Source: Flavonifractor sp. An92 (GTDB taxonomy: Bacteria > Bacillota > Clostridia > Oscillospirales > Oscillospiraceae). Taken from it: a stretch of 64,000 nt of DNA. The translations under genes were made by a program, and so were the position numbers. The stretch spans positions 62,001-126,000 of the forward strand of contig NZ_NFGZ01000002.1 in assembly GCF_002159175.1 (NCBI RefSeq). The letters run 5' to 3'. The notes beneath the pieces were generated by a model, which had not been told where the DNA came from, did no database searches, and worked only from the letters and a program-made list of their open reading frames with translations. This document shows, one piece after another, positions 9,901 to 22,124 of this stretch (the stretch's first letter is position 1; the number at the start of each line of letters is the position of its first letter).

Positions 9901-11229
9901 AGCGGGTCTACTTGGTACTACACCAATGAGAACGGCTATCTGGTTCTGAGCGGTCGGATCTACGACGCAGCTACTGCTGAGATGCAGGCCGACGGCCTCA
10001 ACTCTACCGTGAACCAGCGTATCTTTGGCAAGACGACCAGCCAGCAGGACAATATCGTGGTGGTCCAGATAGGAGACGCTTACTACCGCGCCACCATTCA
10101 GGAGGACGGTACCTTCACCGTCCGCATCCCCGACAGCGGTACTCCCGTGGAGAGCGCCACGGTGTACTACGGCGACCACTTCCTGCCAGTGGGCAGTGAG
10201 GCCTATGCGAATGGCCAGCGCTACGGCTGGAGCGAGGAGCAGGCCAGCAAGGACTTTGATCCTCAGCGCCTGAGCTATGAGCAGTGGGGCCCCCAGGATG
10301 CCGGCGACAAGGTGCCCTGGATGTTCCTGTATGCCTATCGCGCCGCCAATATGGACTCTATGCAGGTGACCATCTCGAACAAGAGCACCACTTCCGGCGG
10401 CGGGAGCAGCTCTGTGACCCGCTATACCATCCAGGCCCAGGCCAGCGAGGGCGGCACCATCTCTCCCAACGGCTCGGTTCGTGTGGAGCGTGGCGATGAC
10501 CAGACCTTCACCATGAAGGCGGAAGAGGGCTATGTCCTGTCCGACGTCCTGGTGGACGGGAAGAGCGTGGGCGCCGAGGAGCGCTACACCTTTGAGAACG
10601 TGCGCGCCAATCACACCATTGAGGCGGTCTTTGAGACGGACATCGGGGAAGGCGACACGCCGCTGGCCAGCAATGTGTTCCAGGATCTGAACAAGGATGC
10701 CTGGTATGTCGATGCTGTGAACTATGTGTACGCCAATGGACTGATGAACGGCACCAGCGAGACCACCTTTGCCCCCAACACCAATCTGACCCGCGCCATG
10801 CTGGTTCAGATCCTGTACAACCTGGAGGAGAATCCGGCCGCTGGTACGGCTTCCTTCCACGATGTGGCCTCCGATGCCTGGTATGCCGACGCGGTGGCCT
10901 GGGGCACCCAGGCTCAGATCATCAGCGGTGTGGGCGGCGACCTCTTTGCCCCCAACGCGGATATCACCCGGGAGCAGGTGGCAGTGATCCTATACCGCTA
11001 TGCCCAGTACAAAGGCTATGATGTGACCGGCGGCGCGGACCTTTCCGCCTACGTCGATGCCGACAGCATCAGCACTTGGGCCCTGTCTGCCATGCAGTGG
11101 GCCAATCAGAAGAGCTTCGTCACCGGTACCAGCGCCACCACCCTGGCTCCTCAGGGTGCGGCGAGCCGGGCACAGGCGGCTTCCATGCTTATGCGCTTCT
11201 ATGAGAGCGTGGCCGTGGAGACTGAGTAA
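6910..11229 (+). CDS. Large S-layer-anchored subtilisin-like (S8) protease
   Basis: A 1439-residue secreted protein. Order of parts: signal peptide (about 1-26, ending ASAN), an inhibitor-like propeptide, a subtilase domain with triad Asp227 (VIDSGID), His283 (HGHGTHVSG) and Ser654 (GTSMATPH), interrupted by a PA-like insertion, then Fn3-like beta regions, a bacterial repeat module (about 1175-1225), and three SLH repeats at the C-terminus that bind secondary cell wall polymer. It resembles C5a-peptidase or lactocepin-type proteases that cut proteins at the cell surface. The start at 6910 follows AAGGAGTGAAAGA and begins the signal peptide. Its position after opp suggests it feeds peptides to the importer. 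Confidence 0.92.
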   Translation: MSGKGKQILSGVLALSLAVGLAVPASANTVASETDKTSENAVHPSGLVGFDGEYALSGDGSPVSIIVELEHQPAALVRALQEMSGMGTLGASQGNLEAQAEQDREEFLDALSAMPAAQSASGSEVEITYTYTNAINGYALTVPDTLVPELAKLECVYAIYPNEEIQLDLDEELNETYTIGVDLGSSAGDGETSAEPIGMLASRNYYETEALNEAGYTGAGVTVGVIDSGIDYEHPDLAAAFSDKMPGTGETAPDDLLLNGKFYGRNYIKNGREANDPMDDHGHGTHVSGTITGRGEDAISTRGIAPEVTLVGYKVITASDSVSSNNLIKAMEDACKDGCDILNMSLGWSNQNGPIHVTTLALNNLALQYPDTLFVVCAGNNGSASYTLWSPSTSPLAFCVANAEIPFLRYHYVIHRTEDVESVYDTQIRLVRNDWSSTAEFDDAKGVYLLQSGVDEDPDCYFAPSETGTYQMLLLPVTEPTEDGSNWDNLATGTQEELDAFAEANPDWDWTNTMVVLKRGQNFDDTVKRLRALGGGTVVVINTEGRDDADISYYQSPFENYLPVFTVGYEDGLELIEALEPGQACEVNIPAIEEPTSEPHIYTGSSRGPVESTYDVRPDIAASGTNVLSTVPRTYFDPDLETHEHSYASMTGTSMATPHIVAFAALLKQEHPEWNALQLKAHLANTANPDELDTEDRYLSVYDQGSGMVRPADALANSDFYATASNLNAYYRTDTNGIANDGAVEGTTISFGVVSNYAETSKLVPVTVYNDGADAAEFSVEIRTTQALNGVSVTAASDSVTVEGGSQVSFDVTAAVSAEAETGFCEGYVVLTEASSDITLVLPFAIYVNNQPADEGGAFNEDFTFTQVAVLSNGEHSQIKDIPNYSSFDSLLHYQFANSYDMLNLLIGDAEGNPIGLAYPETITDTSVGDNWYWYGTFTGSYYPYDESGHPSQTAQPLPEGQYQLLFQAKKLDGKEDVHAVPFVVDNTLPELTLSDSSGSTWYYTNENGYLVLSGRIYDAATAEMQADGLNSTVNQRIFGKTTSQQDNIVVVQIGDAYYRATIQEDGTFTVRIPDSGTPVESATVYYGDHFLPVGSEAYANGQRYGWSEEQASKDFDPQRLSYEQWGPQDAGDKVPWMFLYAYRAANMDSMQVTISNKSTTSGGGSSSVTRYTIQAQASEGGTISPNGSVRVERGDDQTFTMKAEEGYVLSDVLVDGKSVGAEERYTFENVRANHTIEAVFETDIGEGDTPLASNVFQDLNKDAWYVDAVNYVYANGLMNGTSETTFAPNTNLTRAMLVQILYNLEENPAAGTASFHDVASDAWYADAVAWGTQAQIISGVGGDLFAPNADITREQVAVILYRYAQYKGYDVTGGADLSAYVDADSISTWALSAMQWANQKSFVTGTSATTLAPQGAASRAQAASMLMRFYESVAVETE

Positions 11230-11297
11230 ACAAAACATGTGAGTTCAGGGCGGTTCCCGCCAGATACGGCGGAGAGCAGACTGGAGTCAGACGAAGA

Positions 11298-11338
11298 ACG
11301 AGCGGCACAGCCAAAGGCTGTGCCGCTCGTTTGGTTTT
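11298..11338 (+). terminator. Rho-independent terminator after the S8 protease
   Basis: A 15-base perfect stem (11298-11312 with 11316-11330, loop AAA) is followed by TTGGTTTT. It ends the opp/protease transcript and faces the converging 3' end of the selenoprotein cluster. Confidence 0.9.
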
Positions 11339-11392
11339 AGATGCAGTTGGTGGTATTGAACACGGTAAGGTTTACGGTGCGGACGGGGATTT

Positions 11393-11665
11393 TTATGTGT
11401 GGGGGAGGGGCGTCAGCGACCGGCTGCCAGGCCCGTAGGCCATGCGGTAGAACCGGCAGTCGCCGCGGCAGCTTTCCAGTGCCGCCCGGGCCTGGGGGTA
11501 CTCCTCCGGCGGGAGGCGCACCGAAAGTCCGCAGCTGACCGAGATCTCCCGGGGCGTGGGCATGATGTGGGCGGTAAGACCGGCCCCCTCCAGGGTCCGG
11601 CGGGCCTGAACAGCCCCCAACGCGCCGTCAAAGGCGATGAGACAGTAGATATGTTCCTCTTCCAT
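11393..11665 (-). CDS. DUF3343 protein, putative Se/S carrier-like
   Basis: A 90-residue protein resembling the DUF3343 family, which Pfam describes as putative Se/S carrier-like. The family features seen are the opening YCLIAFDGALGAVQA, the helix that follows, the segment REISVSCGLSVRLP with a central Cys, and a ferredoxin-like length. It is the last gene of the minus-strand cluster, 27 bases after the stop of a substrate-binding lipoprotein, with GGGAGG eight bases before its start. A protein handling selenium or persulfide would fit a cluster that contains several predicted selenoproteins. The biochemical role of the family is not established. Confidence 0.75.
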   Translation of the reverse strand: MEEEHIYCLIAFDGALGAVQARRTLEGAGLTAHIMPTPREISVSCGLSVRLPPEEYPQARAALESCRGDCRFYRMAYGPGSRSLTPLPHT

Positions 11666-11692
11666 GCCGCGCCGCCTCCCGCTGCGGCTCCA

Positions 11693-13012
11693 TCAGCTCG
11701 CCTGGTGATAGGGCGCCACATAGACGCCGTCGCCGGTGTAGGGCTCGATGGGGCTCTCGGTGGTGTTGCCACCCTCCATCCACTTGTCCACGGTCTTGCC
11801 CACCGTGCTCTCGTGGTCGATGCCGTCGATCTCCTCGGCCATGTACAGCCAGTCGGCGTAGCTCATGCCGATGGGCTGGACCTCGTCGATCTTCTCCTCC
11901 GCAATGAAGGTATCAAAGTCCTCGATGCCGCACTTGTCCAGCCAGCTCAGGTCCATGAAGCCATCCACGTCGGTGACCAGAACGCGCTCCTCCTCGGGCA
12001 CGCCCAGCTGATCGTACCAGGTCTCGTAGTTCTCCATGTTGCTCTCGTCGATGGTCCAGCACAGAGTGCGGCCCTCGGCGTTGGTCTTGAGGTACATGGT
12101 GCGCAGGCCCACGTCCTTGGAGGTGCCGAAGGTCTCGGCGAACATCTCACCGGCGCTGTAGGGGTGCTGGTACATGTACTTGATGGCCAGGCAGTGGGCC
12201 AGCACCAGACGGGTGGTCAGCTCGGGGTGGGCCTCGGCGAAGTCGGCGTTGATATAGTAGCCGCAGTGGATACCCCAGCCGGTGGACTTGTCCTCCTTCA
12301 CGTCGGCGTGCCAGGCGGTGGCCAGGATCTTGCCGAAGCCCTCCTGCTCGGCGATGGAGGCGTAGGGGTCACAGCAGGTGAAGATGTCCAGCTGGCCGGC
12401 CCGCAGGGCCATCATGGCGTCCTCGTCGCCCATGCTGGAGCCCTGGTAGTAGGTTCCGATGTCGGAGGGGATGCCCAGCTTGTCACAGATCTCCAGCCAG
12501 AAGGTGCTGTACTGGGAGTCGGGGCCCATGTCCAGGGTCTTGCCCACCACGTCGTCCAGGGACTCCACGTCGGGGCTGACCACCAGGTACATGGCACCGC
12601 CCAGGTGGGAGCCGGCGGGCATGATGACCTGGGCGCCCTTGTTGTAGTTGTTGATGAGACCGCTGAAACCGGCATAGCCCACCACCATGTCACCGGAGGC
12701 CATGGCAGAGGCCACCTGGCTGGTCTTGGTGATGTTGACGTTCAGGCCCAGGGCCTCATAGAGGCCGGTGTCCTGGCCGATGATGGCCGCCACCATATGG
12801 TCACAGTTGTTGTAGCCCATTTCGATGACGTAGTCCTTGTCGGCCTCGGGGATTTCGGGCAGGTTGTCCACATAGGGGGCGATGGCCTCCTGGGGGTCGT
12901 ATTTGACCTCCGCAGTCTGTTCGGTCTCCTGGCCGCTGTCGTGACAACCGGCCAGAGCGCCGGCCAGCATGGCGCCGGCCAACAGAAGAGACAGTGTTTT
13001 CGTGTACTTCAT
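11693..13012 (-). CDS. ABC substrate-binding lipoprotein with Cys-Cys pair (NMT1/SsuA-like), paralogue of the next gene
   Basis: A 439-residue lipoprotein: lipobox LAGC with Cys23, then an SsuA/NMT1-type solute-binding fold. Conserved features shared with its neighbour include Cys70 in CDHMV, DPYAS, LKTNAEGRTL and a shared ending region (PIGMSYADWLY, IDGIDHES). Cys213-Cys214 in TCCDPYAS occupies the place where the neighbour has an in-frame UGA followed by DPYAS. It would bind a ligand outside the cell for the two ABC permeases upstream in the cluster. A start at 13012 is set by the signal peptide and AAGGAAGG; a longer frame to 13360 runs through the neighbour's 3' end and is spurious. Likely a second SaoB-type protein; the name is from memory. 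Confidence 0.82.
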   Translation of the reverse strand: MKYTKTLSLLLAGAMLAGALAGCHDSGQETEQTAEVKYDPQEAIAPYVDNLPEIPEADKDYVIEMGYNNCDHMVAAIIGQDTGLYEALGLNVNITKTSQVASAMASGDMVVGYAGFSGLINNYNKGAQVIMPAGSHLGGAMYLVVSPDVESLDDVVGKTLDMGPDSQYSTFWLEICDKLGIPSDIGTYYQGSSMGDEDAMMALRAGQLDIFTCCDPYASIAEQEGFGKILATAWHADVKEDKSTGWGIHCGYYINADFAEAHPELTTRLVLAHCLAIKYMYQHPYSAGEMFAETFGTSKDVGLRTMYLKTNAEGRTLCWTIDESNMENYETWYDQLGVPEEERVLVTDVDGFMDLSWLDKCGIEDFDTFIAEEKIDEVQPIGMSYADWLYMAEEIDGIDHESTVGKTVDKWMEGGNTTESPIEPYTGDGVYVAPYHQAS

Positions 13013-13058
13013 GGCGGATCCTTCCTTTCTCCAGTTACAGATGCTGCCTTTAGGTGGC

Positions 13059-14339
13059 TTATCCTTCGCTGTCGCTGTGGAGGGGGATCTCGGTGATGAC
13101 CTCGCCGTCCATCCACTTCTCCACGTTCTTGCCCACTTCGCTGCTGTGATCGATGCCGTCGATCTCCTCCGCCTCATACAGCCAGTCGCTGTACGACATG
13201 CCCACGGGGAAGTTCGCGTTGATGCCGGCCTCCTCCAGGAAGGTGTCGAAGCTCTCGATGCCGCAGCTCTCCAGGAAGGACAGATCAAAGATGCTGTCGC
13301 TGCCGGAGGCGACAATGGAACGGTTTTCCTCGCTGATGCCCCAGTACTCCTGGTAGGCACAGAGGTTGTCGATGTTTTCGCCGCTGATCTCCCAGTTTAG
13401 GGTGCGGCCCTCGGCGTTGGTTTTCAGGTACATGGTGCGCAGGCCGGCCGCCTCGCTGGTGCCGAACTCCTTGGCGAACATCATGGCCGCGCTGTACGGG
13501 TGCTCATACATGTACTTGGTGGACAGAGCGCTGGCCAGCACCAGGCGGGCGGTCAGCTCCGGGTGTTCGTCCACAAAATTCTGGTTGTAAACTTCGGTGC
13601 AGCACACGCCCCAGCCGATGCCCAGCTCATTGGACAGGGAGCCCCAGGCGGTGTTGATGATCTTGCCGTAGCCCTCTTCCTCCGCACGGGAGGCATAAGG
13701 GTCTCACACAAAGCAGCCGTCAATCTGATCCGCCTTCAGGGCGGTGACGGCGTCGCTGTTGCTCATGCTGACTCCCTCATAGGAGCGGTAGTCCGGGTCC
13801 ATGCCCAGCTCACTGCTGAAGCGCAGCCACTCGGTGCTCTCCATGGAGGTCTCGGTGACGGTGAGGGACTTGATCTGGTCCAGGGAGGTGATCTCATCCC
13901 GGACCAGGAAGTACCGCGCGCCGCCCAGGTGGGAGCCCACCAGTCCGATGAGGGGAGCTCCGGCGTTGAAGTTGTTGATGGCGCTCTGGAAGCTGACGTA
14001 GGCGCAGTCCATATCCCCGGCGATGAGGGCGTTCATGGCCTGGCCGCTCTTGGTCACGTTGACGTTGAGCCCCAGGGCCTCGTAGATACCGCTCTCCTGG
14101 CCGATGATGGCGCCCACCATATGGTCGCAGTCAAAGAAGCCCATCTCGATGACAAAATCTTTATCCGCCTCGGGGATCTCGGGCAGATTCTCCAGGTAGG
14201 GCGCCACGGCTTCGTTGGCGTCAAATTCCACATAGCTGACGTTCAGCTGCGCGTCCTGCTCACTGTCGTGGCAGGCGCTGAGCAGCCCCAGCGTCAGTGC
14301 GCCCGCCACAGCCAGCGCGGTGAGGTTGTGTAGGTTCAT
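13059..14339 (-). CDS. saoB: ABC substrate-binding selenoprotein lipoprotein (in-frame UGA read as Sec212), SaoB-like
   Basis: Reading UGA at 13704-13706 as selenocysteine gives one 426-residue lipoprotein; without it the gene splits into two open frames with no frameshift between them. Lipobox LLSAC (Cys23) and Cys71 (CDHMV) match the downstream paralogue. Sec212 falls in GCFV-U-DPYAS, aligned with the second Cys of TCCDPYAS in that paralogue. Similarity continues uninterrupted on both sides of the UGA. Ten bases after it a hairpin with arms CCTCC/GGAGG and loop CGUGC could act as a bacterial SECIS. AGGAG precedes the start at 14339 by six bases. It probably feeds a metal- or organometal-related ligand to the permeases; this is inference. 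Confidence 0.82.
13679..13693 (-). promoter_or_regulatory. Candidate bSECIS hairpin of the substrate-binding selenoprotein
   Basis: On the coding strand the hairpin CCTCC-CGUGC-GGAGG starts ten bases after the UGA, placing a loop G about 17 bases downstream. Known bacterial SECIS elements have a small stem with a G near the start of the loop roughly 16-37 bases after the UGA. The fit is by eye only. Confidence 0.5.
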
Positions 14340-14418
14340 GTATTGCTCCTGTTCCCTTCTCGTGTCTTCTCTTGCGGCTGCCGCCGCGGGCTTTCGGCCT
14401 TCCAAGCGAAAGCCCCTC

Positions 14419-14449
14419 CTGCTCCCGGACCGGGAGCTGTCCATTGCGG
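14419..14449 (-). repeat. 31-base hairpin repeat, copy 1 (downstream of permease gene 1)
   Basis: This 31-base segment differs by one base from 15448-15478. Its core is the inverted repeat GCTCCCG-N3-CGGGAGC. Both copies lie just downstream of a UGA-containing permease gene, in the spacer before the next gene. They may be transcript-processing hairpins or a trace of tandem duplication of the permease unit. Confidence 0.75.
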
Positions 14450-14480
14450 CCTGAACGGGACCGCCGTCCCGCCCCTGGAA

Positions 14481-15314
14481 TTACCGCTTCCAGCGAAGCA
14501 GTATACCCTCCAGCACCAGTACGACGCGATCCATCAGGAAGCCCACGATGCCGGCCATGATCATATAGGCCATGATGGCGGTGGTGTCCAGCTGGACCTG
14601 TGCGTCGTGGATCAGAAATCCAAAACCGGTGGTGGTCGCAATGAACTCGGCTCAGACGACCGCGCCCCAAGCGCTGCCGATGGAGACCCGCAGGCCGGTG
14701 ATGAGACCGGCCATGCTGGAGGGGAACACCACGTCGGTGATGGTCCCCAGGGTCTTGGCGCCCATGCTGCGCACGGCGTTATAGTAGTCGGGGCTGATGT
14801 CCTGCACCGCCACCACGGTGGAGAGCAGGACGTTGAAGGTCGCCTGGAATGCGATGATAAAGATGGTGGGGCCGTCGCCCAGGCCGAACCACACCACGGC
14901 CAGAGGCACCCAGCACATGGTGGGGATCTGGCGCAGGGAGTTGATGAAGGGGGCGATGGTGTACATCACGGCCTTGGAAAAGCCCATGGCCACCCCCAGA
15001 GGGAAGCCGATGACGGCGCCCCAGAACACGCCCACGGTCACCCGGCGCATGGTGATGTACAGGCTGCGCCAGACGTGCATGTCGGTGAGCGAGTAGCCGA
15101 TCTGCCCCAGGATGTCCTCGATCATGGGGAAGCGGAAGGAGTCGTCCACCGCGTGGGCCGCCACAAACCAGATGGCGATGAGGCAGGCCAGCGAGAGGAC
15201 CAGACTGCCGTAGTAGCTCACCCAGCTCCGGATGGCCGCGCCCATCCGCTTCCCGCCGGAAGGGGCGATAGCCGGGGTTCCGCCTTCGGAGCGGGGTGTT
15301 TTGTTACGCTTCAT
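14481..15314 (-). CDS. saoP: ABC transporter permease selenoprotein 1 (in-frame UGA read as Sec221), SaoP-like
   Basis: Reading UGA at 14652-14654 as Sec gives a 277-residue permease of the SsuC/TauC class. The coupling loop is AVRSMGAKTLGTITDVVFPSSMAG-type, ending a normal distance before the UGA. Sec221 lies in WGAVV-U-AEFIATTTGFGFLI, where ordinary SsuC/TauC proteins have VVAAEMI-like residues. The 56 residues after the UGA contain the expected last membrane helix and charged end (LLRWKR), so a true stop would remove needed structure. The next permease gene carries UGA at exactly the same place, 57 codons before its end. The start ATG at 15314 is the best available but its ribosome site (AAGGAAGTGAG) is somewhat distant. 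Confidence 0.82.
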
Positions 15315-15447
15315 GCTCTCAGAGCTCACTTCCTTCTTCGCCGCGTCCGCCGCGGCAGGGTAGCCCGGCCGGGCCGCCGGCCAGCCGGGACATACAGGAT
15401 GCCTCCTGTCTTCGCCCAGACCCCCGGGCGGGGGTGGGGCGGAAAGC

Positions 15448-15478
15448 CTGCTCCCGAACCGGGAGCTGTCCATTGCGG
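15448..15478 (-). repeat. 31-base hairpin repeat, copy 2 (downstream of permease gene 2)
   Basis: The partner of the copy at 14419-14449, with one difference in the hairpin loop. The 193-base spacer 15315-15507 that contains it is GC-rich and holds no credible gene. The final 23 bases of both permease genes (14481-14503 and 15508-15530) are also identical. Confidence 0.75.
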
Positions 15479-15507
15479 GAGCTGCGGACCAAAGTGTCCG
15501 CGGACGG

Positions 15508-16347
15508 TTACCGCTTCCAGCGAAGCAGTACGGTCTCCAGCAGCAGGACGATGCGGTCCTGCGCGAAGCCCAGCACGCCCACCAAGATCATGTAGGCCAT
15601 GACCGTGTCGGTCCAGAGCTGACTCTGGGCGTAGCTGAGGATGAAACCGAAGCCGTCACTCGTCGCAATGAACTCCGCTCACATCACCGTCATCCATGCG
15701 CCGCTCAGGGCCATGCGCATACCGGTGATGAGACCGGACATACACCCCGGGAACACCACATCCACCAGCACATCCTTGTTGGTGGCGCCCATGCTGCGCA
15801 CGGCGTTGTAGAAGTCGGGGCTGATCTCCTGCACGCCGGAGATGACGTTCAGGATGACCACAAAGACCGCGTTGAACGCGATGATGAAGATGGTAGGGCC
15901 GTCGCCCAGGCCGAACCAGATGATGGCCATGGGCACCCAGGCGGTGATGGGGATCTGCCGCAGGGCGTTGATGTAGGGGGCCAGAAGGCGCATCAGGAAG
16001 GGGGAGAACCCCATGGCCATCCCGATGGGGAAGCCGATGACCACCGCGATGCCCACGCCCTTGAGGACCCGGACGAAGGTGATGAGGAAGTTGGTCCAGA
16101 AGTAGGGGTCCACCAGCGCCTCAAAGAGCCGGGCCAGCACGTCCTCGATGTAGGGGAAGGTGGCCACGTAGTTGACCTTGTGGGCGGCAAAATACCAGAT
16201 GAGCAGCAGCACCGCCAGGCAGCCGGCGAAGGCGAAGTAATAGACCACCGAACCGAAGAGGTTGCGGAAGTTGCGCCGGTCGCCCAGCCGCACCGAGGTT
16301 TGCATGCGCTGTAAATCTCTTTGACCTTGATCCATAATGCTTTGCAA
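15508..16347 (-). CDS. saoP: ABC transporter permease selenoprotein 2 (in-frame UGA read as Sec223), SaoP-like
   Basis: A 279-residue SsuC/TauC-type permease if UGA at 15679-15681 is Sec. The coupling loop AVRSMGATNKDVLVDVVFPG is followed by GAWMTVM-U-AEFIATSDGFGF. The UGA is in the same position as in the adjacent paralogue, and homology continues after it through the last membrane helix to LLRWKR. Two non-identical permeases suggest a heterodimeric channel. The start is uncertain: TTG at 16347 has GAGG just upstream, while ATG at 16335 lacks a site; the protein would then be 275 residues and the Sec at 219. It is 30 bases from the preceding gene. Confidence 0.82.
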
Positions 16348-16377
16348 TCGCCTCGTTTCCGATGGAGATAGGGGCTG

Positions 16378-16710
16378 TTACAGGGTGATCACCTGGTCGA
16401 TGTTGGCCCCGGCCAGCGCGGTGTACACGTTGGGGAAGCAGCCGATGCCGGCGGGCGCCACCAGCTTGTCCTCGATCTCCCGCTGGATGCAGCAGCGGTC
16501 GCAGGCCATGAGCAGCATGCCGGTCTTTTCGGACAGGGCGGCCAGACGCTTGGCGATGTCGTTGCCCTCCACCAGCATGTAGCAGTTGTCAAAGAAGAAC
16601 ATCATGCCGGCCACCTCAGCCACATGGGTCCCCTGCTCCAGCTGGGGGATGATCATGTTCTCCAGGATCTCCCGGGCGTGTTCGGATTCAAACAGATACG
16701 CGACTTTCAT
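16378..16710 (-). CDS. saoD: DsrE-related small cysteine-rich protein, SaoD-like
   Basis: A 110-residue protein with a DsrE/DsrF-like pattern (MFFFDNCYMLVEGNDIAKRL) and five cysteines: Cys43, Cys70, Cys73, Cys74 and Cys91. The group CDRCC at 70-74 is striking and would suit transfer of sulfur or capture of a soft metal. DsrE proteins carry persulfides in sulfur trafficking. It lies between the ATPase and permease genes of the cluster. The start at 16710 follows GGAGGG by seven bases; an upstream ATG at 16731 has no such site. The name follows what I recall of the SAO families. Confidence 0.78.
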   Translation of the reverse strand: MKVAYLFESEHAREILENMIIPQLEQGTHVAEVAGMMFFFDNCYMLVEGNDIAKRLAALSEKTGMLLMACDRCCIQREIEDKLVAPAGIGCFPNVYTALAGANIDQVITL

Positions 16711-16770
16711 TTTCGTTCCCTCCATAGTCACTGGGTTTTGGGTTCTCTATCAGGTCACGGCCGGACGGGC

Positions 16771-17712
16771 TTACAGCTTGTCGTCCAGGTCGTGGCACTG
16801 CCGGGTCTTGCGCAGAAAGTTCCTGCGCTCTTTTTTGGGCGCCGACGTCTCCTTCTCGGTGCCCAGGATGCTGCGCCCCTCGGTGAGGTCGGCGCCGGTC
16901 TCCACATTCTCGATGAACTTCATGAGGTCCTTGTCCTCATCGTTAAAGACCTCGCCGTTGAGGGCGTTCTTCAATACCTCGGTGAGCTGGTCCATGTACT
17001 CGTGGTACCGCTCGGAGGTGCGGTCCCGGGGGCGGGGCAGGTCGATCTTCACGTCCGCCATGATGCGGCCGTGGTCCCGGGACATGACCACCACCCGGTC
17101 GCTGAAATAGATGGCCTCGTCCACGTCGTGGGTGACCATCATGGTGGTCACCTTCCGCTGCTGGAGCATGGCCTCCATCTGGATCTGGAGGAGCTTGCGC
17201 ATCTGGAAGTCCACGGCGCCCAGAGGCTCGTCCATCAGCAGGATCTCCGGGTCGCAGGCCAGGCCGCGCAGGATGGCCACGCGCTGCTTCATGCCGCCGG
17301 AGAGCTCGTAGATGTAGCTGTTGGCGCTGCCCTCCATCTGGGCGATGGCCAGCAGCTCCTTGAGCCGCCGCTCCCGCTCGGCCTTGGGGACGCCCTGCTT
17401 CTTCATGGGGTACATGATGTTGTCCCCCACCTTCAGCCAGGGGAGCAGCGCGTAGTTCTGGAACACGAAGGCCCGGTCGGGGCCCGGCTTGGTCACGGGC
17501 TTGCCGTTGACCAGCACCTGGCCAGAGTCCGCCTTCTGGAAGCCGGCGATGATGGTCAGCGTGGTGGTCTTGCCGCAGCCGGAGGGGCCTACCAGGCTGA
17601 CAAACTCCCCGTCGTGGACCTCAAAGGAGATATCCTTCAGGACCAGCTTCTTCTCTTTCTTGTTTCCCTTGGCGGAAAAGGTTTTGGTGATGCCCTGCAC
17701 AGAGATCGACAT
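16771..17712 (-). CDS. saoA: ABC transporter ATP-binding protein of the SAO-like cluster (SsuB/TauB class)
   Basis: A 313-residue ATPase of the nitrate/sulfonate/taurine class with Walker A GPSGCGKT (42-49), FVFQNYALLPWL Q-loop region, signature ELSGGMKQR (136-144) and Walker B ILLMDEPLGAVD. About 50 residues beyond the usual SsuB core form a charged tail. It is the only ATPase in the cluster and so should drive the two Sec-containing permeases, making a complete importer with the substrate-binding lipoproteins. No unusual cysteines are seen in its active motifs. It is 60 bases upstream of the DsrE-like gene. Confidence 0.85.
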   Translation of the reverse strand: MSISVQGITKTFSAKGNKKEKKLVLKDISFEVHDGEFVSLVGPSGCGKTTTLTIIAGFQKADSGQVLVNGKPVTKPGPDRAFVFQNYALLPWLKVGDNIMYPMKKQGVPKAERERRLKELLAIAQMEGSANSYIYELSGGMKQRVAILRGLACDPEILLMDEPLGAVDFQMRKLLQIQMEAMLQQRKVTTMMVTHDVDEAIYFSDRVVVMSRDHGRIMADVKIDLPRPRDRTSERYHEYMDQLTEVLKNALNGEVFNDEDKDLMKFIENVETGADLTEGRSILGTEKETSAPKKERRNFLRKTRQCHDLDDKL

Positions 17713-17760
17713 AGTTTTCCATTCCTCGTTTCGTTTCTCGTGGTGTCCAAAGGGGCCGGT

Positions 17761-18576
17761 TCACTCCTGTCCGGCCTCCGGCAGGTACAGGAATTTCAGA
17801 TTGACGGAGTCCCAGAAGGCGTCGTCCATGCCGTAGAGGGCCTGGAGGTTGGCCTTGTCGTTGAGGGCTTCCGCCGTCTCGTTGTAATACTTCAGAAAGG
17901 TCTGGAACTGGGGGGTGTCCACGATCTCGTCCCGCACCACCAGACAGTAGGACACATAGTCCTGGTCGCAGACCCGGGTGTACTGGTACTCCGGCATCTG
18001 GAAGGCGCGGGCGATGTCCATCACCGCCCCGTCCACCTGCTGGTCGCCGAAGGCGTACAGGATGGAGGTGGAGGAGACCTCCTCGATGCTCTCCACCCAC
18101 GGGTACTCCTCCCGTACCAGCTCGGCCAGATGCTCCCGCTTCATGGGGATGGCCATGGTGCGGATGTCCTCCGGGTCGGTCCAGTAGCCCAGCACCTCGC
18201 CGTTCATGACCACGGGGCTGTAAATGGAGAAGCCCTCGCTCTGGTTGACGATGGCCATGGAGATATGGCTGCAGTAGAAGCCCAGGTCGATGTCCTGGGT
18301 CAGCAGGGACCACTGTCCGGCGTTGGAACAGCAGTCGATGAAGAGATAGGAGTCCAGATCCTCCCCGCCCGCGTGGGTCAGGCCCTCCTGGCCGTCGGCC
18401 TCGTAGCGCTGGAGGATCTGCTCCATCAGCCGGCCGGTGATGTCGTCTCCCACGCCCACCACCAGCGTCTCGTCGTCCGCCGGGCGTTTTCCCTCCCGGG
18501 GCAGGACAAAGGCCAGCAGCAGACCCAGGACCAGGGCGGCGCTGAGAAAGATCGCCCCCCGTTTCATGGCGTTCAA
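17761..18576 (-). CDS. Membrane-anchored solute-binding-like protein with Asp-Cys-Cys motif
   Basis: A 271-residue protein with one N-terminal membrane helix (about 7-25) and an extracellular domain whose end (YCLVVRDEIVDTPQFQTFLKYYN) resembles NMT1-type solute-binding proteins. The motif FIDCCSNAGQ at about 79-88 gives another vicinal Cys pair, and other cysteines occur in FYCSH and RVCDQ. It may be a further binding component of the importer; it could also be the family named SaoB, which I cannot decide from memory. I see no MerB active-site pattern. The start is TTG at 18576, ten bases after GGAAGGAGG; ATG at 18567 is possible. Confidence 0.7.
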   Translation of the reverse strand: MNAMKRGAIFLSAALVLGLLLAFVLPREGKRPADDETLVVGVGDDITGRLMEQILQRYEADGQEGLTHAGGEDLDSYLFIDCCSNAGQWSLLTQDIDLGFYCSHISMAIVNQSEGFSIYSPVVMNGEVLGYWTDPEDIRTMAIPMKREHLAELVREEYPWVESIEEVSSTSILYAFGDQQVDGAVMDIARAFQMPEYQYTRVCDQDYVSYCLVVRDEIVDTPQFQTFLKYYNETAEALNDKANLQALYGMDDAFWDSVNLKFLYLPEAGQE

Positions 18577-18598
18577 GGTGTGCGAGCCTCCTTCCCGG

Positions 18599-19150
18599 TC
18601 AGCAGCAGTCTTCCATATCCTCGCCGAACAGGTTGATCAGCTCGCCGTCGATGATGCGGTAGATGGCATAGCCCACCTCACCGTCCTTCTCGCCGGTGAC
18701 GACAAACTCCATCTCGCCCTCCTTGTCCATGTTGAAGAAGCGGATGGCCTGGTTTTCGATGGGGGCGCGGGTGGGCTCGGTGATGTCGTAGGTGCCGTCG
18801 CCCCGGTTGATGAGGGCCACCATCCAGTTGATGACGCCCTCCTCCGGGTTGTGGTAGAGCACCACCAGGTCCTTCCGCCCGTCGTCGGTGAGGTCCTCCT
18901 CACAGGCCAGGAAAATCTCCCGGCCGGGTACTTCCTGCTGGAAATAGAGGAGCGCCTCGTGGTCCTCCGGCACCGACTCGGCGTATTGGAGACGGCTGCT
19001 GCTGTTCTGCTTTTCCTCCTCCAGGGAGTAGATGTACTGCCGCAGGAAAAACACCGCCACGACGGCGGCCAGGATCAGCAGGAGCCGGGCCCAGAGGGGG
19101 AAGGAGCGCTTTGCTTTGCTGTTGTTCGTCATTGCATTCACCGCCGTCAT
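18599..19150 (-). CDS. saoC: Membrane-anchored protein ending in Cys-Cys-COOH, SaoC-like
   Basis: A 183-residue protein with an N-terminal signal anchor (about 18-37), an extracytoplasmic domain that contains a calcium-loop-like segment (DLTDDGRKDLVV), and the last two residues Cys182-Cys183 (GEDMEDCC). A free C-terminal vicinal dithiol is rare and recalls the C-terminal Cys pairs of MerA and thioredoxin reductases that handle mercury or selenium. It matches the family I recall as Cys-Cys-COOH (seleno)protein SaoC. Its ATG overlaps the stop of the upstream permease by four bases, so translation is coupled. An upstream start at 19231 would lie inside that gene and is rejected. Confidence 0.82.
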   Translation of the reverse strand: MTAVNAMTNNSKAKRSFPLWARLLLILAAVVAVFFLRQYIYSLEEEKQNSSSRLQYAESVPEDHEALLYFQQEVPGREIFLACEEDLTDDGRKDLVVLYHNPEEGVINWMVALINRGDGTYDITEPTRAPIENQAIRFFNMDKEGEMEFVVTGEKDGEVGYAIYRIIDGELINLFGEDMEDCC

Positions 19151-20256
19151 ACGGTCTCCGCGTCCCGTCGGGCGGAGAGCTTGCGCAGGCGGCTGCGCAG
19201 GGCGCTGAAGCCGGCGTAGAGGGCGTAGCACACCAGAAGGCAGGTGCAGACATACTTGAGCCAGTCAGGGCCGTTGTGCATCATGGTGTTGGCCGCCGAG
19301 ATGGAGTGGGTCACCGCGTCATAGTTCAGCACCGGCACGAAGTCGGGGAAGAGCTGGTTGGTGAGATAGCCCACGAAGTTGGAGATGAAAACCACAAGGC
19401 CGAAGTACATCAGCATGGCCCGCTTGCCAATGGTGCGGTTGATGGTGATGAGCTCGGAGATGTTGGTGGCCGCGCCGGCCATCAGGAAGGTAATGGCCAC
19501 GCCGGGGGCGGCGCCGCTGGCCACGATGGCCGCGATGAAGGGGATGTGTCCCACGGCGCAGACGTACATCACGGCGGCGATGACGGTGATGCCCAGCAGG
19601 GAGATGAAGCTGGGGTCGCCCAGGTAGCGCTGGATGGCGGTCTGGGGGAAGATGCTGAAGATCAGCGCGGCGGTGAGCATGCCCAGCACGGTGTACTTGC
19701 CGATCATCAGGGCCAGCTCGCTGAAGGACCAGCGCAGGCCCATCAGGATGCGGCGGGGCACCGAGGGCTTCTCCATCTCCAGCTGGATGCGCTGGGTGCC
19801 GTTGTCCTCCCGCTTCAGATAGAGCTCGTCCCCTGCGAAGTGATTGGCAACGAGACCGATGATCATGGGCGCCACGAAGCCGGTGATGACGTACACGGTG
19901 GCGATCTCCGGGCCCAGCAGGCCATAGCAGAGGATGATGGCGATGGGGTTGATCATGGGGGACGAGGTCATAAAGGCCAGCGTGGGCCCCAGATACGCCC
20001 CCGAGTGGTACAGGCCGATGCCCAGCGGGATGCTGCCGCAGCTGCAGATGGGGATGAGCATGCCTGTCAGGGTGGCCCACAGCACGCCGGTGGGCTTGGT
20101 GGTGCCCAGGTTGCTCTTCTGCAGCGCCTCAGGGGTGAGGAACTCGTGGAGACAGCCGGCCACGATCAGGCTGAGCACCATCCAGTAGGACGCTCCGTTG
20201 ATCATGTTGACCGCCGACTTCAGCACCGTCCATAAAAAATCGACAAATTCGCTCAT
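19147..20256 (-). CDS. saoE: Permease of the DUF318/ArsP-like family, SaoE-like efflux transporter
   Basis: A 369-residue membrane protein with the family signature LIPICSCGSIPLGIGL (Cys71, Cys73) and TSSPMINPIAIILC, repeated later as GHIPFIAAIVASGAAPGVA. This permease superfamily includes ArsP, which exports trivalent organoarsenicals, and YraQ-type proteins. About eight to ten membrane segments are visible. A soft-metal or organometal export role fits the Cys-rich neighbours. It overlaps saoT by four bases upstream and saoC by four bases downstream, so these three are translated together. Confidence 0.85.
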   Translation of the reverse strand: MSEFVDFLWTVLKSAVNMINGASYWMVLSLIVAGCLHEFLTPEALQKSNLGTTKPTGVLWATLTGMLIPICSCGSIPLGIGLYHSGAYLGPTLAFMTSSPMINPIAIILCYGLLGPEIATVYVITGFVAPMIIGLVANHFAGDELYLKREDNGTQRIQLEMEKPSVPRRILMGLRWSFSELALMIGKYTVLGMLTAALIFSIFPQTAIQRYLGDPSFISLLGITVIAAVMYVCAVGHIPFIAAIVASGAAPGVAITFLMAGAATNISELITINRTIGKRAMLMYFGLVVFISNFVGYLTNQLFPDFVPVLNYDAVTHSISAANTMMHNGPDWLKYVCTCLLVCYALYAGFSALRSRLRKLSARRDAETV

Positions 20257-20510
20257 GCCGTTTTCAGTGCCTCCTCAAACGCGTTTCGTACCGCGCTCTT
20301 GCTCAATTTGGCGATGGCTTTGGCTTCGTTGATGATGAGCATGCTCTTGGAAATCGCACCATATTTGGCGACATATTCCGTATCGACACCGGACTTGTAA
20401 ATCTTCACATCCACGCGTCCCCGATACTCCACGGCCAGGGATTGGACCAATCCCGCATAGACCTCGCATCACCCACAGGCACTGATGTATTCGATACAAG
20501 GATGTTTCAT
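20253..20510 (-). CDS. saoT: Thioredoxin-like selenoprotein with C-G-U-C motif (in-frame UGA read as Sec14), SaoT-like
   Basis: Reading UGA at 20469-20471 as Sec gives an 85-residue protein beginning MKHPCIEYISACG-U-CEVY. Cys12-Gly-Sec14-Cys15 sits where small thioredoxin/glutaredoxin-like proteins carry their redox cysteines, followed by the thioredoxin-type strand (RGRVDVKIYKSGVD). Only the full reading has a proper start: AGGAGGAAAAATC precedes the ATG at 20510, while the fragment after the UGA has none. Fourteen bases after the UGA is a perfect seven-base-pair hairpin, a good bSECIS candidate. It is the first gene of the cluster and overlaps saoE by four bases. Confidence 0.88.
20438..20454 (-). 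promoter_or_regulatory. Candidate bSECIS hairpin of saoT
   Basis: On the coding strand GGGATTG-GUC-CAATCCC is a perfect seven-pair stem with a GUC loop, beginning 14 bases after the UGA, so the loop G lies about 22 bases downstream. Spacing and loop resemble known bacterial SECIS elements, for example the GGUC loop of fdhF. Confidence 0.7.
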
Positions 20511-20570
20511 GATTTTTCCTCCTCTTCCAACACAAAACACTAAAATTTACCAGACTATGTAAACGAAAAA

Positions 20571-20599
20571 ATTATACCACCACGATTCTTTATTGAAAA
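20571..20599 (-). promoter_or_regulatory. Promoter of the selenoprotein cluster, with possible operator downstream
   Basis: On the minus strand TGGTATAAT (extended -10, 20571-20576) lies 17 bases from TTTTCA (20594-20599). Between it and the first gene, 20546-20563 holds the inverted repeat TTTAC-N8-GTAAA, close to the expected transcription start and possibly an operator. The regulator is not evident in the window. Confidence 0.6.
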
Positions 20600-20746
20600 G
20601 AAGGGGGGAGACATTATCGAAAAACACAATATCTGGCCAAATTATATAGAAAAAGTTCCATAAAACTAAAAATGGATGGAAGGAACAATTTTGCATAAAT
20701 CAAGCGGAAGTGCGAAAAAACATGCGCGGTTTTCGGGCGAATTGGC

Positions 20747-20781
20747 ACAAAAAACCCCGGAGCTCTGAGGAGCATCCGGGG
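20747..20781 (-). terminator. Terminator of the marR-MATE operon
   Basis: Arms CCCCGG (20755-20760) and CCGGGG (20775-20780) extend inward with GAGCTC-like pairing; on the minus strand a T-run follows at 20747-20754. It separates the MATE gene from the selenoprotein cluster promoter. Confidence 0.8.
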
Positions 20782-20792
20782 TATTGTACGCG

Positions 20793-22124
20793 CTAGGCGT
20801 ACTGATAGCGCCTGCGGCAGAGGAGGAAAAACGCCACGGTGACCGCCAGGGCGCACAGCTCGGCGGCCACGATGGCCAGCCACACGCCGTCCAGGCCCAG
20901 CAGGAAGGGGAGGAGCAGGATGGCGGCTACCTGGAACACCAGCGTGCGCAGGAAGGAGATGGCGGCCGAGACACCGCCGTTTCCCAGGGCGGTGAAGAAG
21001 GCAGAGCCGAAGACGTTGAATCCGCAGAAGAGAAAGGCCAGGGCGTAGATGCGGAATCCGTGGTAGGTCATCTCGGCCAGGGCCGGGTCGTACCCCACAA
21101 AGAGGACGGAGAGGGGATGGGAGAGTACTTCCGCCAGGGCGGTCAGCACCAGCGCGCACAGGGCGGTGATGGTGAGGCTTTTGCGGAAGAGGCTGCGCAG
21201 CTCGCCGGTGTTTCCGGCGCCGTACTGGTAGCTGATGACCGGGGCGCTGCCGATGGCGTAGCCGAAGAAGATAGCGTTGAAGATGAAGTTGATGTACATC
21301 AGTACGCCGTAAGCCGCCACGCCGTCCTCGCCGGCCAGCTCCATGAGCTGGAGGTTGTAGAGGGTGTTCACCACCGAGGAGGACAGGTTGGTCATCAGCT
21401 CCGAGGAGCCGTTGGCGCAGGCCCGCAGCAGCGCCCGGGGGGTGAAGGGGGTGCGGGTCAGGCGGAGGAGACTGTCGTTGTTCCGGGCGAAGTAGATCAG
21501 GGGCAGGCCGCCGCCCACCACCTGGCTCATCACCGTGGCAAAGGCCGCCCCGGCGAGGCCCCAGCGGAACACCGCCACAAAGAGGGCGTCCAGCACGATG
21601 TTGGTCATGCCTGCTCCCACGGTGAACCACAGGCCCAGCCGGGGCTTTTCCGCCGTGACGAAGAAGCTCTGGAAGGCGATCTGGAGCATGTAGGTGGGCT
21701 GAAAGACCAGCAGAATGCGGCCGTAGAGGATGCAGTCGTCCAGCATGGAGCCGGTGGCCCCCATGGCCGAGGCGATGGGGCCCACGGCGAAGAAGCCCAC
21801 CGCGCCCAGCACTACGCCGGTGACGATGGCGGCGTAGATGATGAGGGAGAAGTACTGGTTGGCTCGCTCCCGGCGGCCCTCGCCCAGGGTGATGGCCACC
21901 AGGGCGCTGCCGCCGGTGCCGAACATGAAGCCCATGGCGGCGATGCCCATGAGGAAGGGCATGATGAGGTTGATGGCCGCAAAGGGGGTCTTGCCCACAA
22001 AGTTGGACACGAACAGCCCGTCCACCACCGTGTAGATGGAGGTAAAGACCATCATGATGACCGACGGCAGCACGAAGCGGATGAGCTTGGAGTAGTCAAA
22101 GTGTTCGGAGAGCTGGATCCTCAT
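20793..22124 (-). CDS. MATE-family multidrug efflux transporter
   Basis: A 443-residue protein with about twelve membrane helices and the NorM/DinF-like pattern of MATE exporters (LIRFVLPSVIMMVFTSIYTVVDGLFVSNFVG at the N-terminus shows the first helix and the DGLFV turn). Such proteins pump cationic drugs out using a Na+ or H+ gradient. Its ATG overlaps the stop of the marR gene by four bases, so the pair is a translationally coupled operon controlled by the MarR operators upstream. The substrate cannot be predicted. Confidence 0.9.
   Translation of the reverse strand: MRIQLSEHFDYSKLIRFVLPSVIMMVFTSIYTVVDGLFVSNFVGKTPFAAINLIMPFLMGIAAMGFMFGTGGSALVAITLGEGRRERANQYFSLIIYAAIVTGVVLGAVGFFAVGPIASAMGATGSMLDDCILYGRILLVFQPTYMLQIAFQSFFVTAEKPRLGLWFTVGAGMTNIVLDALFVAVFRWGLAGAAFATVMSQVVGGGLPLIYFARNNDSLLRLTRTPFTPRALLRACANGSSELMTNLSSSVVNTLYNLQLMELAGEDGVAAYGVLMYINFIFNAIFFGYAIGSAPVISYQYGAGNTGELRSLFRKSLTITALCALVLTALAEVLSHPLSVLFVGYDPALAEMTYHGFRIYALAFLFCGFNVFGSAFFTALGNGGVSAAISFLRTLVFQVAAILLLPFLLGLDGVWLAIVAAELCALAVTVAFFLLCRRRYQYA

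Follow-up and report, generated by a model that had tools for sequence, protein, structure and literature searches.

The mer operon combines import by MerP and MerT with the lyase MerB and the reductase MerA. A selenocysteine-assisted organometal (SAO) system has reportedly been described by Haft and Gwadz in 2023 (J Bacteriol 205:e00259-22). A 2026 review that follows their work counts SaoB, SaoC, SaoL, SaoP, SaoT and SaoX among the selenoproteins and mentions an SAO operon in which six genes encode selenoproteins (PMC13188914). An experimentally shown SAO substrate was not found in the open-access literature searched, to which the founding 2023 paper does not belong. When a stretch of 64,000 nucleotides from the gut-type anaerobe Flavonifractor sp. 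An92 (contig NZ_NFGZ01000002.1, positions 62,001 to 126,000; hereafter the window) was analyzed, eleven closely spaced genes on the minus strand (11393-20510 of the window) were confirmed, as judged by family matches, as an SAO operon of the published kind with a lineage-specific layout. Together with a saoL gene on another contig, this cluster would encode a thiol/selenol relay which imports a thiophilic organometal, with SaoL cleaving it and a reductase and/or SaoE disposing of the product. We assign this reading a probability of about 0.55.

Ten of the eleven products (SaoT, SaoE, SaoC, SaoB, SaoA, SaoD, two SaoP and two SaoX) reached the NCBIfam equivalog cut-offs of Sao families when UGA was read as selenocysteine (Sec, U) where needed. 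In the order of transcription, the genes are as follows.

20253..20510, minus strand: saoT, thioredoxin-like selenoprotein with the motif CGUC; UGA at 20471-20469; NF040730, 95.5 bits (cut-off 65)
19147..20256, minus strand: saoE, ArsP-type efflux permease with a conserved CSC and a third Cys; NF040736, 518 bits (cut-off 325); PF03773
18599..19150, minus strand: saoC, Cys form with the C-terminus Cys-Cys-COOH and, in our reading, a putative N-terminal membrane anchor; NF040734, 166 bits (cut-off 80)
17761..18576, minus strand: saoB, substrate-binding protein of a second type, present in its Cys form (CC plus one more Cys); start at TTG 18576 or ATG 18567; NF040727, 273 bits (cut-off 140)
16771..17712, minus strand: saoA, ABC transporter ATPase; NF040729, 413 bits (cut-off 360)
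16378..16710, minus strand: saoD, DsrE-related protein with three conserved Cys; NF040732, 187 bits (cut-off 169)
15508..16347, minus strand: saoP1, ABC permease selenoprotein; UGA at 15681-15679; start at TTG 16347 or ATG 16335; NF040733, 296.8 bits (cut-off 295)
14481..15314, minus strand: saoP2, second ABC permease selenoprotein; UGA at 14654-14652; NF040733, 295.4 bits (cut-off 295)
13059..14339, minus strand: saoX1, lipoprotein-type substrate-binding selenoprotein (VUDPYA); UGA at 13706-13704; NF040735, 357 bits (cut-off 300)
11693..13012, minus strand: saoX2, Cys paralogue of saoX1 (CCDPYA); NF040735, 420 bits (cut-off 300)
11393..11665, minus strand: DUF3343 gene, putative Se/S carrier-like, last gene of the cluster; PF11823 (Se_S_carrier), 53.9 bits (cut-off 25)

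The pairs saoT/saoE and saoE/saoC overlap by 4 bp each and the remaining intergenic gaps measure 22-193 bp. The NCBIfam scan returned no match for the DUF3343 protein, a relative of which is present in 24 of 80 SAO loci. An earlier note, written from the sequence alone, had placed eleven minus-strand genes, some of them overlapping, at 11393-20510, and all were recovered at the coordinates given beforehand. Its description of four UGA-interrupted genes, an ArsP-like permease, a DsrE-like protein, SsuABC-type importer parts, a DUF3343 Se/S carrier-like gene and duplicated permease and binding-protein genes was borne out by the matches listed above. The note had also named a lack of similarity to Sao families, or of Sec machinery in the genome, as grounds for giving up the SAO assignment. 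Both the similarity and the machinery (selA, selB and tRNA-Sec together on contig C19, selD on contig C4) were found.

The genes saoT, saoP1, saoP2 and saoX1 are open reading frames only if a single UGA in each is read through. Family alignments were built from 86 stretches (the window, 80 loci containing SaoE and five more), at least three of which are repeats (L127, L128 and L014 repeat L047, L048 and L054). The Sec column of SaoP holds U in 78 of 87 sequences, C in 7, and F and V in one each, the last two belonging to second, divergent permeases of L119 and L115. In SaoX the column is mostly Cys (7 U and 73 C, n = 80), and in SaoT it is more variable (39 U, 24 C, 14 S, 7 T and 4 G, n = 88), with U also found in a second column in 20 of the 88 sequences. 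U and C are nearly balanced in SaoB (38 and 39, n = 78), and the 50 sao-linked SaoL sequences carry 44 U and 6 C. SaoC keeps its Cys pair in 82 of 83 members, the second column being U in 5 and C in 77 of the 83. Three Cys columns are kept in 58 of 59 SaoD and in all 88 SaoE sequences, and the third one in SaoE is U in a single member (L075). Likewise, SaoX of L090 has U at the first conserved Cys; apart from these two cases, neither site is ever U in the set. Chance was rejected as a source of the UGAs in the window because each of them falls at an alignment position that is occupied by U or Cys in relatives. We also observed that L115 and L119 have a further permease gene and a further ATPase gene next to sao, the Sec column of these permeases being V or F.

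RNA folding 3' of the four UGAs of the window showed no excess over dinucleotide shuffles (z of -0.35, 1.09, 0.19 and -0.82). When folding after the UGA was compared across the loci (mean z against mononucleotide shuffles, U forms and C forms, respectively), values of -1.41 and -0.40 were obtained for SaoL, -1.17 and -0.38 for SaoX, -0.97 and 0.29 for SaoT, -0.53 and -0.24 for SaoB, and 0.00 (n = 78) and 0.59 for SaoP. Three families thus receive some support from folding, and SaoP receives none. Since folding supports recoding neither at the UGAs of the window nor in SaoP, recoding rests on the comparative evidence.

Sec machinery was also searched for in 50 SAO genomes, chosen by us from the 80 loci and not independent of each other, the other 30 genomes lying outside the search. 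A selA gene was found in 47 of them. Of the three genomes without a match (G419, G420 and G422), the one with L068 has no UGA in its sao genes, and those with L069 and L072 carry U in SaoP, so that an assembly gap is likely for these two. In total, six of the 80 loci show no UGA in the visible sao genes; L068, L070 and L111 include SaoP and the other three are cut short. The genome of L070 has selA all the same. In the An92 genome, the selD region (L137 3007-5856, contig C4) consists of a DUF3343 gene, a gene of membrane type, perhaps YedE, and selD with one in-frame TGA, and SelD may therefore itself be a selenoprotein.

The SaoX1 model, based on 52 sequences, has the fold of a periplasmic binding protein (mean pLDDT 87.6). 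Among its fold matches (VIA-align), 3un6 ranked first (Z 26.5), followed by NrtA and CmpA, with SsuA, TauA (Z 20.7) and the desulfinase DszB lower. The sequence of SaoX2 alone had no match at E 0.001 among solved structures, and the profile of the 52 SaoX sequences succeeded. Three residues (Cys49, Cys/Sec190 and Cys225, mature numbering) do not vary among these 52 sequences and are kept in 80, 80 and 79 of 80 in a wider set. The correspondence to TauA was obtained from a profile alignment, counted by hand and numbered by the TauA chain range of the structural match. By this count, Cys190 aligns with TauA Trp176 and Cys225 with Asp205, and Cys49 would correspond to Ser32, provided that the first part of the structural match is free of gaps. 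In TauA, according to the part available of the structural report, Asp205 gives taurine selectivity, Trp176 touches MES and Ser32 is among the residues lining the site (PMC6906117). The TauA residues are thus not kept in SaoX, the Trp176 and Asp205 positions being Cys/Sec, and the SsuA_fam score of SaoX (61-67 bits) is below the cut-off of 163.5. Because Cys and Sec occupy ligand-site positions of TauA, SaoX seems to have exchanged the sulfonate site for Cys/Sec ligands. As DszB was among the fold matches and has a Cys active site (the title of the entry names a C27S mutant), a catalytic role of SaoX was considered as well.

In the case of SaoP, the protein aligns with NrtB and CmpB and its Sec meets NrtB Ala220 (hand count), in a helix which we take to line the pathway in importers of this type. 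The SaoB model (mean pLDDT 90.2) was likewise placed among periplasmic binding proteins by fold comparison, and SaoB has three invariant Cys. Its profile gave three weak matches to solved structures, the best being MetQ (E 0.026).

The earlier note had seen no SaoL. This holds for the cluster and not for the genome, in which a saoL gene on another contig (C1:301057-301776, equal to L003:9058-9777, near an NrdR gene) scores 156.4 bits against a cut-off of 140. The gene is unlinked to the cluster, as all SaoE and SaoX matches of the genome are on contig C12. Three positions are kept in all 50 sao-linked SaoL sequences, namely a Cys, an Asp and the U/C column described above, and by hand count they align with MerB Cys96, Asp99 and Cys159, presumably the catalytic residues of MerB. 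The SaoL of the An92 genome is a Cys form, in which C130, D133 and C193 align with these residues and Cys193 stands at the Sec column. Judged by this alignment, the Sec of SaoL takes the place of MerB Cys159.

The double-cubane cluster protein (DCCP), an unusual iron-sulfur reductase, scored over the cut-off in 50 of the 50 SAO genomes and in 41 of 391 genomes sampled from the class of the window. The four genomes of the class sample with SaoE over the cut-off were all among these 41, which leaves DCCP in 37 of the 387 genomes without SaoE. DCCP is also present in all three SAO genomes that lack a selA match, whose records look like metagenome-assembled genomes (MAGs). With profiles built from the neighbouring open reading frames (ORFs), DCCP was found beside sao in 38 of the 80 loci, in 33 of them within 1 kb. 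These profile-based counts were used because ORF-based counts (37 loci including the activase; 36) had overlooked some loci, among them L048 and L051. A molybdopterin oxidoreductase lies beside sao in 17 of the 80 loci (14 within 1 kb). DCCP or the molybdopterin enzyme was present in 49 loci, both in 6 and neither in 31, many loci ending at contig ends. Ten neighbour representatives were scanned, of which four reached NF040772 and two TIGR00241, and four molybdopterin proteins were below every NCBIfam cut-off.

In the window, neither DCCP nor a molybdopterin reductase is adjacent to the cluster, unlike in part of the relatives. The genome has four DCCP matches, three of them over the cut-off, and none is beside sao genes. 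A tree was drawn from the DCCP of sao loci and the four of this genome, a selection that does not separate a sao type from other DCCP. An adjacent DCCP pair of the genome (L135 6826-9103, contig C56) groups among sao-locus pairs, at nearest distances of 0.19 and 0.74, in this tree, in which unlinked DCCP of other genomes are not included. A further DCCP gene of An92 has an overlap with a DUF3343 gene, and a DUF3343 gene is also found near selD. Among other neighbours, sensor kinase and response regulator genes were observed inside or beside the sao clusters of L058, L060, L061, L062, L064, L066, L067 and L087, and 13 of the loci compared contain LysR genes.

In the sequence of events that we infer, including the direction of transport, the class of substrate, the order of the steps and all roles of SaoT, SaoC, SaoD, SaoE and the reductases, lipoprotein-type SaoX (and SaoB) would capture a thiophilic metal or metalloid bearing an organic group in a cleft lined by Cys/Sec, which replaces the sulfonate site of TauA. 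SaoP and SaoA would import it by ATP hydrolysis, the Sec of the permease offering a further contact for a soft metal. SaoL, a MerB-like lyase with Sec in most relatives and Cys here at the MerB Cys159 position, would then break the carbon-metal bond. SaoT, SaoD and SaoC may provide thiols for reduction or hand-over, SaoE would export a product, and DCCP, or in some relatives the molybdopterin enzyme, may reduce an intermediate.

More tentatively, and with doubts of our own, SAO and DCCP together could be an anaerobic counterpart of mer, in which a relay leads from a converted sulfonate-binding protein via the permease, each subunit of which would carry one selenolate, to a lyase of MerB type that has a catalytic selenolate in most relatives, and an ATP-driven double-cubane reductase or a molybdopterin enzyme stands in MerA's place. 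If so, the retention of Sec in both permease paralogues, seen in the window and in the five loci nearest to it, would imply a channel that requires two selenolates. What is new here is comparative: in the binding protein as well as in the lyase, Cys/Sec stand at apparent ligand positions, and DCCP accompanies the system. The site mapping points to specific SaoX and SaoL residues for mutation. To our knowledge, DCCP has no known natural substrate, and its presence in all 50 SAO genomes searched gives this reductase a concrete candidate pathway. If the metal reading is true, gut anaerobes have a selenium-based organometal route, which would affect the persistence of such compounds in the gut.

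The earlier note had proposed organometal import or capture, with mercury as its guess, and export of a product. As a candidate function, this agrees with the site residues of SaoX, with the residues of MerB type in SaoL and with an exporter of the ArsP type. Several points weigh against the organometal relay. SaoP1 and SaoP2 exceed the NF040733 cut-off narrowly, by 1.8 and 0.4 bits. SaoL was found in 38 of the 50 SAO genomes and over the cut-off in 34, and is therefore either not always needed or not always assembled. No match to SaoE was obtained at E 1e-40 in 72,556 plasmid records; metal resistance genes, by contrast, are commonly carried on plasmids. The background sample for DCCP was not matched for selenium use, so that part of its presence in 50 of 50 genomes could follow the selenium trait. 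In addition, DUF3343, a LysR type and 2-hydroxyglutaryl-CoA dehydratase-like subunits with their activase were reported near selenium genes of other bacteria in 2015, in the part available of that study (PMC5322559), and DUF3343, DCCP-type subunits with activase and LysR would fit selenium metabolism at least as well.

The main rival explanation is accordingly the scavenging of organic selenium, in which SaoX, SaoP and SaoA would import methylated or other organoselenium compounds, SaoL or DCCP would break the C-Se bond, and SaoD and the DUF3343 protein would pass Se to selenophosphate synthesis. Apart from the gene neighbourhoods of 2015, it draws on Mlp clusters with DCCP and Sao genes nearby that were tied to methyl-selenide metabolism in the available part of another report (PMC10418091), on selA in 47 of the 50 SAO genomes, and on the DUF3343 genes beside one DCCP and near selD in the An92 genome. 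However, we consider it rather unlikely, as an ArsP-type exporter or a complete set of MerB residues is not obviously needed for it and six loci, three of them with SaoP (L068, L070 and L111), show no UGA in the visible sao genes. The genome of L068, a MAG, has no selA match and yet two DCCP genes beside its sao genes, although that of L070 does have selA. The relay could also act on an organoarsenic compound or another organometalloid instead of mercury, the trivalent product then leaving through SaoE in the manner of ArsP. Pfam assigns SaoE to ArsP_1, and the molybdopterin enzyme beside sao in 17 loci could reduce the pentavalent form, its four scanned representatives being those below every cut-off. 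On the other hand, SaoL resembles MerB, whose substrates are organomercurials, and we regard an arsenic substrate as improbable. Finally, the cluster might be a sulfur-relay or sulfonate uptake operon with true stops and decayed genes, since SaoX, SaoP and SaoA are distantly related to components of SsuABC/TauABC, SaoD is DsrE-related, and folding of the selenocysteine insertion sequence type is not evident at the UGAs of the window or in SaoP. This true-stop or pseudogene reading was rejected, and we give it hardly any weight, because U and Cys alternate at one column across many genomes with the frame conserved on both sides, and the genome has tRNA-Sec, selA, selB and selD.

The loci nearest to the window, L047-L051, include records of Flavonifractor and Lawsonibacter type; all five share its gene order, with two Sec-containing SaoP and one Cys-containing SaoX. 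In the trees, SaoP1 and SaoP2 fall into separate clades, and every neighbour listed has Sec. saoX2 groups with the single saoX of these relatives, and saoX1, absent from L047-L051, is a divergent sister branch of the saoX2 clade. Pairs of saoX are also present in L056, L088, L090 and L092.

Around the cluster, two further features were noted.

11296..11332, strand not assigned: 17-pair hairpin between the DUF3343 gene and the converging plus-strand gene, from a terminator scan, with a T-rich tail on the plus strand; possible terminator candidate
20571..20599, minus strand: promoter-like site TTTTCA-17-TATAAT upstream of saoT, from a consensus scan; weak (2 found and 2.4 expected in the region)

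By our reading of the ORFs, the upstream neighbour looks like a MATE transporter and the converging downstream gene on the plus strand like an S8 peptidase. The same string of 17 bases occurs, as part of a small hairpin, 3' of both saoP1 (15459-15475) and saoP2 (14430-14446) on the minus strand (two matches, 0.03 expected), with one exact match each in L047, L048 and L049. The only Rfam match in 11000-21000 was to a miRNA family, far below the gathering score, and was taken as chance.

When the locus is set against known systems, SaoX shares the fold of the binding proteins of TauABC/SsuABC and NrtABCD/CmpABCD, and permease and ATPase are homologous. The differences are the Cys/Sec at the ligand site of SaoX and the Sec of the permease where NrtB has Ala (by hand count). 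DCCP and its activase, represented by NF040772 and TIGR00241 beside sao in relatives, are not adjacent in the window; the proximity of the NCBIfam number of DCCP to the Sao numbers hints that the 2023 SAO paper may already report this link. The mer operon would be alike in outline, with thiol capture, import and a lyase with MerB residues. It differs in having MerT where SAO has an ABC importer, SAO has Sec, SaoE lacks a match in the plasmid collection, and merA was over the cut-off in none of the 50 SAO genomes (24 of them with weaker relatives), the genome of the window being outside this search. The closest system is SAO itself: the SaoA, SaoB, SaoC, SaoD, SaoE, SaoP, SaoT and SaoX families and an unlinked SaoL are all represented, with Sec in SaoT, SaoP and one SaoX. 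What would set the present system apart is an operon with a pair of Sec-bearing saoP genes, a pair of saoX genes and a DUF3343 gene at its end, a saoL on another contig, and Cys forms of SaoB, SaoC and the SaoL of the genome.

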